In this document: piece by piece, positions 45,384 through 48,595 of the stretch
Position numbering within the stretch: the stretch's first letter is position 1
Layout: every line of letters begins with the position of its first letter
Assembly: GCA_029550685.1 (NCBI GenBank)
Contig: JAKPGY010000094.1
Location: 1 to 48,595 of the forward strand
Source: Bacillota bacterium
GTDB taxonomy: Bacteria > Bacillota > Syntrophomonadia > Syntrophomonadales > Syntrophomonadaceae
Reading direction: 5' to 3'
DNA: 48,595 nt
Made by a program: the position numbers and the translations under genes
The notes under the pieces: generated by a model
Told to the model about the DNA's origin: nothing
Databases searched by the model: none
The model's input: only the letters and a program-made list of their open reading frames with translations

Positions 45384-45520
45384 AGCTGACAACCACCTTT
45401 CAATAAGTTACTGTAATGAAATATCCAAGAACCAGTCGAAATCTATTGTATAATGTCTGAAGTTTGATATTATATAGATGTATAAAAAATTTTAATATGC
45501 AAGCGACCAGGGGGATTTGG

Positions 45521-46468
45521 ATGAATATCGAGCAATTTGAAATTTTTCGTACTATAGCCCAGGCTAAGAGTTTTACTAAAGCAGCTAAAATACTTAATTT
45601 CACCCAACCAGCCATCAGTTCCCAGGTCAAGATGTTGGAACAAAATTTTAATGTTGCACTGTTTGAACGTTGCAACACTGGGGTTAAACTTACCGAAGCA
45701 GGCCGCAAGTTTTACGAATACGGTGAGCGTATTCTAGCTATTTATGCGGAAATGGAACGGGAAATAGCCAATATTTCAGGAAATAATAGAGAATTTATAA
45801 ATGTAGGAGCTACCTTCACTGCTGGTAATTATTTTCTGCCTGCGTCTATAATAACTTTTAAAGAACTACATGATAATGTTCATATTCGCTTAGATATCGG
45901 TCATAGTATTGACATTATAAATGCTATCAAAGAACGTTCTCTTGATTTAGGGGTGGTTGAAGGAGATTATTATCTGGACAAGGATCTTGATGCCTACAAG
46001 GTCCAGAGTAATGAACTAGTAATAATATCATCACCTAACAATCGCTGGTTTGACCACCGGGTGATTACTTTGGAGGAACTGATGCAGATTCCTTTCATAG
46101 CTAGGGAAGAGGAATCAAGCATACGCCATTTCGTAGACTCATATCTAAAAACATTAGGAGTTTCTTTTGATGATTTTAACATTATCACCGAAATAAGCAA
46201 TTTTGAGGCTATCAAGGAAGCAGTGATGAGAAATAAGGGTATATCCCTGGTTCCGTTACCCGTAGTACAGAGAGAAATTCAAGAAGGACATCTTATCCGT
46301 CTGGAAGTAAAAGGAGTTAAATTAGCTTGGGATATGAGAGTGGTGGTCCGGGCTAATGAAACTTTAACCGGGATAAAAGAGGAATTTCTTCAGTTCCTGA
46401 CCGACCCCAATACTATGTGGAAAGCGGAGAGCGATTACAATCAGAATCAAAAAATGAGATTTATATAA
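45521..46468 (+). CDS. LysR-family transcriptional regulator
   Basis: 315 residues from ATG 45521 behind AGGGGGAT. The LysR winged-helix HTH is at about 1-60 (FRTIAQAKSFTKAAKILNFTQPAISSQVKMLE), followed by a dimer helix and a periplasmic-binding-type effector domain (about 90-290), GATFTAGNYFLPASI at its start. The effector is unknown. It may act on the divergent DUF503 gene or itself: TATAAT lies near 45452 in the shared 137-bp gap. A strong terminator follows. Confidence 0.93.
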   Translation: MNIEQFEIFRTIAQAKSFTKAAKILNFTQPAISSQVKMLEQNFNVALFERCNTGVKLTEAGRKFYEYGERILAIYAEMEREIANISGNNREFINVGATFTAGNYFLPASIITFKELHDNVHIRLDIGHSIDIINAIKERSLDLGVVEGDYYLDKDLDAYKVQSNELVIISSPNNRWFDHRVITLEELMQIPFIAREEESSIRHFVDSYLKTLGVSFDDFNIITEISNFEAIKEAVMRNKGISLVPLPVVQREIQEGHLIRLEVKGVKLAWDMRVVVRANETLTGIKEEFLQFLTDPNTMWKAESDYNQNQKMRFI

Positions 46469-46647: not shown

Positions 46648-46810
46648 ACCTAAATAAGTGGTGCTAGAGACAACTGAAGGACATTTTAAATCCGAGAACA
46701 AATTTGGAATAATTATTTCATAAAAAGCCTGGAGAAAATGGTAAGCCATGACTAAACTTAGTTAGCCCTATCCAGGTCAATTTTTAATCTCTTCCACAAC
46801 TTCCGATAAT
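46648..46810. other. Gene-free spacer before the repeat array, with one hairpin
   Basis: About 160 bases without a coding frame. An outer stem CCTGG/CCAGG (about 46730-46787) encloses ACTAA/TTAGT, and T-rich tracts follow on both strands (AATTTTTAA on plus, CTTTTTATG on minus). It could end transcripts leaving the array on the minus strand or entering it on the plus. Confidence 0.35.
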
Positions 46811-47542
46811 GAACATTATGTAAACTAGCATGAAAACTTGGGTGATCTCCTGTTTAATGGGCGGGGCTAGTTTACATGAATGTTCATTTTCTGTTCTATA
46901 GATTCAATACGAACTATTATTCATGACAATTAATTCAACAATTAAATCAATCAATTAATTAATCACCGTGCCGCTACGGCCAGCGAGGCGTAATGCTATC
47001 ATGCTTGCCCCTAATGTAAAGGGTAAAGGCTAAGCCCGCTGATAGGGCTAATAATTTGCTATCTAAGACCCTTGAAATTCACTTGGTGGTGGGATAAGAC
47101 CTGGTGAACTAAAACGCGCCCTTTACATCAGGTTCCCGCGCGCATGATAATTCGCTGGAAGGCGGGCCAGGCGCGGCTTTTAATCAATAACTAACTAACT
47201 AATATTTGTTCTAATTTCTAACCACCACCTTTATAGAAATGTTAAGCTAGCTTTACAGAAACGGTTGAAAAATGATACTAAGTCAAGTATAAGCAAGAAC
47301 CATGCCAACTATTTCCTAGCAGGGTTTCCCTCCTAGGCGATGTATGAAATCGAGCCCAGTGACACCATAGGCCCCCCCCGATTACGGGCCCCCCCCATGG
47401 AATCACTAGGCCATGTTCCAGCATCGGCCAGCGAGCCACCGTTAGCTAGTCAACATAATAGGCTGTTATACGCTATAGCCCTCAGCTTAGTACCAATTAT
47501 GACAACCAGGTGATTCCCTGGCGGGCTACAGCCCATAACAGC
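46811..47542. repeat. Structured tandem repeat, unit 1 (732 bp)
   Basis: Begins with GAACATTATGTAAACTAGC, which pairs with 46866-46885. The central block (46976-47158) is nearly identical in all copies; the end closes with GCTGTTAT/ATAACAGC (47462-47469 with 47535-47542), directly before unit 2. AT-rich spacers of different sequence separate the structured parts. No frame of protein-coding length was found. Confidence 0.85.
46980..47158 (+). ncRNA. Conserved multibranch core of unit 1, candidate structured RNA
   Basis: Three helices nest inside one another: CCAGCGA (46980-46986) with TCGCTGG (47152-47158); TATCATGC (46997-47004) with GCATGATA (47142-47149); ATGTAAAGGG (47014-47023) with CCCTTTACAT (47119-47128). 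Within are GCCC...GGGC and TTCAC...GTGAA hairpins. A local GCCG-CTA-CGGC hairpin precedes the core. This order of nested perfect stems over 180 nt, almost unchanged in three copies, points to a folded RNA. Strand and expression are inferred. Confidence 0.6.
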
Positions 47543-48262
47543 GAATATTATGTAAACTAGCATGAAAGTCTGCTGGTTACCTGGTTTAATACGGTGCTAG
47601 TTTACATTAATATTCATTTCTAATTATGTGGATCATATATGCACTATTGTTCATGACAATGAATTCATGATCAAAACCAACAAACGAATCAATTAATCAC
47701 GGTGCCGCTGCGGCCAGCGAGGCGTAATGCTATCATGCTTGCCCCTAATGTAAAGGGTAAAGGCTAAGCCCGCTGATAGGGCTAATAATTTGCTATCTAA
47801 GACCCTTGAAATTCACTTGGTGGTGGGATAAGACCTTGGTGAACTAAAACGCGCCCTTTACATCAGGTTCCCGCGCGCATGATAATTCGCTGGAAGGCGG
47901 GCCGGGGCGGCTTTTAATCAATAACTAACTATCAACTAATTTATAGTACTTATCTACTAAATTGTTTAGGACTAATTACTCAAGGTATTAAGAAATGATA
48001 CTAAGTCAAGTATAAGCAAGAACCATGCCAACTATTTCCTAGCAGGGTTTCCCTCCTGGGCGATGTATGAAATCGAGCCTAGTGACACCATGGGACCCCC
48101 CGATAACGGGCCCCCCCATGGAATCACTAGGCCAGGTTCCAGCATCGGCCAGCGGGCCACCGTTAGCTAGTCTACATAACGGCTGTTCTACGCAATAGCC
48201 CTCAGCTTAGTACCAATTATGACAACCAGGTGATTCCCTGCCGGGCTATAGCCTAGAACAGT
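47543..48262. repeat. Structured tandem repeat, unit 2 (720 bp)
   Basis: Starts with GAATATTATGTAAACTAGC, pairing with 47596-47615. The central core is nearly identical to unit 1 in all nested helices. The final stem is GCTGTTCT (48182-48189) with AGAACAGT (48255-48262), changed together relative to unit 1. The hairpin CCTAG...CTGGG at 48038-48060 also differs by one G-U change. Confidence 0.85.
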
Positions 48263-48595
48263 GAACATTATGTAAACTAGCATGAAATCCTTTTAGTTAC
48301 CTGTTTTACAGTGAGGCTAGTTTACAGAATGTTCATTTTCTGTTGTGTAGATTCAATACGAACTATTATTCATGACAATTAATTCAATAATTAAATCAAT
48401 TAATTAATTAATCACCGTGCCGCTACGGCCAGCGAGGCGTAATGCTATCATGCGTGCCCCTAATGTAAAGGGTAAAGGCTGCGCCCGCTGATAGGGCTAA
48501 TAATTTGCTATCTAAGACCCTTGAAATTCACTTGGTGGTGGGATAAGACCTTGGTGAACTAAAACGCGCCCTTTACATCAGGTTCCCGCGCGCAT
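48263..48595. repeat. Structured tandem repeat, unit 3 (cut by the window end)
   Basis: GAACATTATGTAAACTAGC (48263-48281) pairs with 48316-48334. The conserved core follows and runs off the window near the second arm of the GCATGATA helix. The array therefore continues downstream; the number of copies is unknown. Confidence 0.85.

Follow-up and report, generated by a model that had tools for sequence, protein, structure and literature searches.

Gene-free tandem units in the dif site of a syntrophic Firmicute: probable integrative elements that use the host Xer recombinases

The array and its chromosomal site

The right end of the window, by which is meant the whole 48,595-nucleotide stretch of DNA that was analysed, is made up of direct repeats. 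Self-comparison delimits units of 732 bp (46811-47542) and 720 bp (47543-48262), arranged head to tail and followed by 334 bp of a third that runs to the end of the contig, in agreement with the tandem array described in the original prediction. If starts are counted instead from the boundary between the XerC arm and the centre of the recombination site discussed below, they fall at 46810, 47542 and 48262. On this count, unit 1 extends from the dif centre through a XerC-like arm (46810-47541), unit 2 occupies 47542-48261, and unit 3, cut by the contig end, covers 48262-48595; these and all features below are given on the + strand. Because the contig (G000:C36) ends at 48595, within unit 3, the window stops inside the array, and the copy number is at least 2.4. 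With one unit as the query, the only matches in the genome to which the window belongs (G000) were 46811-47540, 47543-48260 and 48263-48595.

The units had been said to hold no plausible gene, and indeed their longest open reading frame is 57 amino acids and is not kept from one unit to the next. Units 1 and 2 are 86% identical, and the partial third unit reaches 93%. The identity of units 1 and 2 is distributed unevenly: an origin-like domain agrees at 205 of 208 positions and a further structured block, domain 3, at 167 of 174, whereas two AT-rich linkers (54/77 and 54/86) and a hairpin loop (19/33) diverge. The contrast between near-identical structured blocks and divergent AT-rich linkers that was noticed at the outset is therefore real.

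The array has a dif site as its left edge, and unit 1 starts within it. The 28-mer at 46799-46826, ACTTCCGATAA TGAACA TTATGTAAACT, consists of a XerC arm (46799-46809), a centre (TGAACA, 46810-46815) and a XerD arm (46816-46826), which is the form of a Firmicutes dif site, an identification that was then tested. When up to three mismatches are allowed, the 28-mer has a single match in the genome and is present in 34 of the 54 family genomes, in 33 of them as a single copy; a control search with the reversed sequence gave no match. Furthermore, in both complete relatives, GC skew changes sign at the 28-mer: in G023 from +0.10 at 1330 kb to -0.05 at 1400 kb, with dif at 1365.8 kb, and in G006 from +0.23 at 720 kb to -0.15 at 780 kb, with dif at 734.9 kb. 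Copy number and GC skew together make it very probable that the 28-mer is dif, where chromosome dimers are resolved. Two XerD-family recombinases are encoded in the genome, both scoring over the XerD model's curated cut-off, and are taken as the XerC and XerD of the host. To the left of dif lies a host gene outside the element (45464-46468), assigned by eye from its sequence to the LysR-type regulators, which is the left neighbour of dif in this genus; its 3' end likewise adjoins dif in G001 (L006) and in the IMG/VR contig L044.

Junctions, hairpins and the origin-like domain

Every unit opens with the centre of dif, followed by the XerD arm, and closes with a degenerate XerC-like arm. The junction between units 1 and 2 (47523-47558) is composed of a XerC-like arm, the centre CGAATA and the XerD arm TTATGTAAACT, and that between units 2 and 3 (48243-48278) of a XerC-like arm, the centre TGAACA and the XerD arm. 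Junction comparison finds this anatomy to be exact in the array itself, at the right end of the G002 array and in L044, G024, G027 and G045. A full dif is present at the left, and at the right ends (G002, G024, G027 and G045) the XerD arm is kept and the XerC side is poor or extended. Counted by eye, the XerC-like arm matches at 3-4 of 11 positions if the centre is 6 bp and at 6-8 of 11 if it is 9 bp.

Each junction carries three att-like copies: the junction itself, an inverted copy about 100 nt upstream and another about 50 nt downstream. In a single-stranded DNA fold of the junction, the XerC-like arm is paired with the upstream copy, and the centre and XerD arm with the downstream one, so that inversely oriented att copies able to pair within one strand, as sought in elements of the CTX-phi type, are present. 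On the XerC side, the hairpin of unit 1 (47445-47541) is formed by an inverted att copy (47445-47481) and the XerC-like arm at 47523-47541, and that of unit 2 (48166-48261) by the copy at 48166-48201 and the arm at 48243-48261. The XerD-side hairpin of unit 1 (46810-46886) was recognised by an inverted-repeat pattern that gives no matches in controls; its centre, XerD arm and a following AGC pair at 18 of 18 positions with an inverted copy at 46866-46886, around a variable loop of 36 nt. The corresponding hairpins of units 2 and 3 lie at 47542-47616, where the centre CGAATA is matched by a compensating change in the inverted copy, and at 48262-48336, where inverted repeat and pairing recur. 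At the junction of units 2 and 3, the two stems abut at AACAG/TGAACA, which is the boundary of XerC arm and centre, where XerC would cleave.

These hairpins have been maintained. Across 11 elements, 193 of 198 pairs of the XerD-side hairpin are kept. It shows three compensatory double changes, of which two belong to G024 and the third to unit 2, whose centre and inverted copy have altered in step. In the XerC-side hairpin there are two compensatory changes. These counts are small because few independent sequences are available. The altered centre of unit 2, CGAATA, agrees with the downstream copy of that unit, and the same CGAATA stands, exceptionally, at the centre of dif in G002. These few cases suggest that the centre arrives with the incoming element, that is, that exchange occurs on the XerC side.

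Inside the units, an origin-like domain is found at 46964-47180 in unit 1, at 47698-47912 in unit 2 and, truncated, at 48413-48595 in unit 3. In unit 1 its conserved motif, TAAAGGGTAAAGGCTAAGCCC (47017-47037), pairs with GCGCCCTTTACATCAGG (47116-47132); the motif lies at 47751-47771 and 48466-48486 in the other two. Motif and stem are common to two gene-bearing elements of relatives described below, in G024 and G027: TAAAGGGTAAAGGCT and CCCTTTA are invariant in all of these, and the rest of the stems around them varies among elements yet still pairs. We infer that this shared hairpin is a replication origin, although it could instead serve for packaging, for the binding of a repressor or as an origin of the second strand, and so not be the region that a Rep nicks. 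Copies of the motif with two mismatches in G045 (contig C25), G009, G029, G036, G023 and G032 were treated as chance because those in G045, G009, G029 and G036 lie in or beside ordinary genes. Domain 3 (47270-47436 in unit 1), identified by its fold and self-complementarity, is a long imperfect hairpin with a C-rich/G-rich core. As a separate observation, the origin-like stem of both complete units has a promoter-like match, TTTACA-18-GATAAT, in its right arm (47122-47151 and 47857-47886); speculatively, it could be a promoter for second-strand priming as in filamentous phages.

Occupied, empty and decayed dif sites in the family

Comparison of one unit with related genomes, a check that had been proposed with the prediction, gave partial homologues in the same family only (Syntrophomonadaceae/Syntrophomonas), and no match to plasmids or phages was obtained by blastn. 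Immediately next to dif, the XerD arm is repeated in inverted orientation (GTAAACTAGC-N-GCTAGTTTAC) in 6 of 54 family genomes, with no matches in controls, and in most other family genomes dif is followed by unrelated DNA; these are empty sites. When the pattern was sought over 85,000 genomes, it also matched in Metabacillus, Anaerovibrio, Companilactobacillus, Desulfotomaculum and a Bacteroidetes MAG; these matches were discarded because their flanks are ordinary long hairpins, terminator- or repeat-like, with no dif.

The occupied sites differ in content. A second strain, represented by the IMG/VR contig L044, has the same LysR-dif locus with 2.4 units. This contig (IMGVR_UViG_3300006674_001650, 1-4251) is chimeric, the Syntrophomonas locus and array giving way after 2 kb to phage-like genes, and only its first 2 kb were used, a chimeric join marked by N bases lying past about position 2000. 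In G002, one contig ends with dif and seven further bases (AGCATGA), and another starts with the right end of an array; the flank of that right end, sought in G000 in order to locate the other end of its array, gave only weak transporter matches. The first 12 bases of this second contig (L004:1-12, TATAAGAGACAG) look like a leftover Nextera transposase adapter at the array break. A contig of G022 ends inside a unit-like stretch, and this genome probably carries a gene-free array as well. In addition, a decayed unit is found at dif in G001, hairpin-only remains are found in G003 and G013, and G045 has a mini-element of 97 bp with both ends present.

Larger versions carry genes. In G024, the element at dif is 1.13 kb long and has, besides the same origin-like hairpin, a gene for a ribbon-helix-helix (RHH) protein. 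In G027, a 2.7-kb element at dif comprises a hairpin, two small open reading frames, an RHH protein that is 45% identical to that of G024, and a Rep of the REP_ORF2-G2P family (PF23343, E = 1.5e-25; phrog rolling-circle initiator, 2.8e-23). The gene-free units have in common with this Rep element both the origin-like hairpin and the hairpin at the dif end, the origin and ends being what a satellite is expected to share. After the Rep element come two units, one of about 515 bp and the other of about 570 bp, which have XerD arms at their boundaries and no convincing gene; the last 301 bp of the first are identical to the Rep element, and both are without the origin motif of the window's units. 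Between species, the bodies of the elements at dif thus differ in sequence and in length, from 0.1 to 2.7 kb.

The G027 Rep is 37-43% identical to Reps of small rolling-circle (RCR) plasmids and 40% identical to an inovirus Rep. Small RCR plasmids and inoviruses with a REP_ORF2-G2P Rep (pGTG5, pHT926 and the bajarodino viruses) are among the known systems that come nearest; the units of the window, unlike these, have no Rep. An arm like TTATGTAAACTAG was sought in four such plasmids and not found, and a search of viral contigs with the Rep gave none. Its best relative found, 45% identical, is on a contig of G137 (L081:1-3532) that also encodes an inovirus coat protein (PF05356, 2.1e-6, over the cut-off). 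The same contig has an RHH-like open reading frame and a strong hairpin between genes, and probably represents an inovirus-like element, not yet described, from a Firmicute. The Rep of G044 was ruled out as part of a dif element, since it belongs to a larger integrated element that has a serine recombinase and is not located at dif.

A helper in the same cell, the other feature expected of a satellite, was not found in the genome of the window. Profile searches there detected neither a PF23343 Rep nor Zot; Rep_1 (PF01446) was not found either, in a search that also gave no match in control genomes, so that its absence is unproven. As the assembly is a draft of 251 contigs with an estimated contamination of 7%, plasmids may be missing from the bin.

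Origin and possible mobility of the units

The original prediction preferred the concept of a large ornate RNA, in which the units would be a structured non-coding RNA family in tandem, each transcribed into one such molecule. The high degree of structure on which this was based is not in question: compared with shuffled sequences, unit 2 folds strongly as RNA (z = -7.95), and genes are absent and structured blocks conserved amid variable linkers, so that the units are, like OLE, GOLLD, ROOL and HEARO, large, folded and non-coding. However, the DNA strands fold equally well (z = -7.9 for the + strand and -7.0 for the - strand), with no strand preference in the fold. Furthermore, the Rfam search that had been called for, run at gathering and relaxed thresholds, found nothing within the units. 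Promoter-like sites (8, versus 5.3 +/- 2.1 in shuffles) are not clearly above background, and terminator-like sites number 1, versus 1.8 +/- 1.2, that one lying outside the units. Unlike those RNAs, moreover, the units are bounded by recombination junctions of the Xer type, and dif is empty in most relatives. An RNA family is thus highly improbable. A locus owned by the host, for example an accessory of dif that serves the terminus or segregation, would account for a position exactly at dif, in the terminus, in several species of one family; since most family genomes have unrelated DNA beyond dif, the body and its length vary by species, and some versions have Rep or RHH genes, it is the least credible of the explanations considered.

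A greater probability, though still a low one, attaches to the idea that the units are dead remains, namely deletion derivatives of a complete Rep-encoding dif element that were amplified by unequal recombination between repeats and are now immobile. The fossils in G001, G003, G013 and G045 are of the kind this would leave, and because no helper was found, the array could be a relic. However, neither drift nor a recent plain duplication would be expected to leave the domains nearly unchanged alongside linkers and loops with differences at 30-40% of sites; neighbouring units differ in their loops, and compensatory changes preserve the hairpins.

It is instead probable that the array consists of gene-free integrative elements, placed head to tail, that use the host XerC/XerD at dif and whose origin and ends are related to those of an inovirus-like or rolling-circle element. 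A remark made in passing with the prediction, that the array might be a replication or segregation locus or a phage-type element, would then be right on both counts, as this would be a mobile element in the chromosome dimer resolution site. The units are most likely a protein-free satellite of a Xer-exploiting (IMEX) element of the inovirus or RCR type. IMEX are a known kind of element, and what is found here is probably an IMEX-like element reduced to DNA structure, a gene-free version, rather than an RNA family. Mobility, integration as a single strand and dependence on a helper we infer from these comparisons of sequence.

In this model of integrative elements, a Rep supplied in trans would nick the origin-like domain and give rise to one-unit circles of single-stranded DNA. 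Attachment would take place at the folded junction, whose two stems meet at the XerC cleavage position, and strand exchange would join the XerC arm of the host to the centre and XerD arm of the unit. Such an exchange would rebuild a good dif at the left and leave a poor site at the right. Since dif would be rebuilt on insertion, further units could enter at the same place, and repeated entry at the regenerated dif would produce a tandem array, which in turn would supply rolling-circle replication with start and stop points at a distance of one unit. The most specific form of this proposal is put forward tentatively, its chances being judged a little short of even: a 0.7-kb protein-free single-stranded DNA satellite made of DNA structures only, which would depend on a small helper for Rep and on host XerC/XerD, use a folded three-copy attachment site with two hairpins that meet exactly at the XerC cleavage position, and form arrays in dif, as a bacterial counterpart of the deltasatellites.

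CTX-phi and RS1 form tandem arrays in Vibrio cholerae. Like CTX-phi and its kin, the IMEX that integrate as single-stranded DNA, the units have inversely oriented att copies able to fold in single-stranded DNA into a dif-like duplex, show a dif at one end and poor dif-like sites elsewhere, and lie in tandem arrays; they would likewise enter dif without an integrase of their own. In CTX-phi, a forked hairpin arises from two inverted att copies separated by about 90 bp, and once the phage has integrated, one functional dif and two poor sites remain (PMC3089051, PMC4246890). The units, in contrast, are gene-free and about 0.7 kb rather than about 7 kb long, have three att copies (with one upstream and one downstream of the junction) rather than two and hairpins on both sides of the junction, and reside in a syntrophic anaerobic Firmicute. 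Because the units have no genes, including the filamentous-phage genes (Zot, coat, RstA/Rep), and no Zot was found in the genome, they were not classed as a phage of the CTX-phi type. RS1 and TLC-phi, like the units as proposed here, are satellites at dif, beside or among larger helpers, and rely on others for some functions. RS1 carries replication genes. TLC-phi has an autonomous replication module (PMC4246890). The units, unlike both, lack replication genes and would need a Rep in trans. Begomovirus deltasatellites are small non-coding circular single-stranded DNAs that share mainly the origin with their helper. Their way of working would be similar but unrelated, the units sitting in a bacterial chromosome by way of Xer and dif. 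A shared origin is described for DNA satellites (PMC12193555).

In the literature searched, which included few subscription papers, Xer-exploiting elements carry genes and come from proteobacteria, and no gene-free IMEX or Syntrophomonas dif element is described. Gene-free arrays at dif of syntrophic Firmicutes, with relatives bearing Rep or RHH genes at the same site, would show the minimal DNA needed for mobility, and would be natural material with which to test the use of folded single-stranded DNA by Xer. Arrays would also explain why contigs often stop beside dif in this family: of 30 dif loci, 9 have a contig end within 500 bp on the XerD side and none has one on the XerC side (Fisher p = 0.002). 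As such stops are expected if arrays break assemblies, they indicate, indirectly, that the elements are commoner than the assembled copies. Such arrays are also a warning that assembly readily loses the terminus of these genomes.

Some minor observations concern dif and its surroundings in other members of the family. Three contigs from different genera (L049, L063 and L053, of G005, G008 and G022) stop 233-234 bp beyond dif. The complete genome G023 has a second dif-like 28-mer with three mismatches on the reverse strand, 144 kb from dif (L083:6914; G023:C1:1509915-1509942), which could mark an old integrated element. Finally, in G018 (L078:3402-4090), an inverted exact XerD arm lies 676 bp beyond dif, with gene-poor DNA between the two, and this is possibly another kind of dif element.
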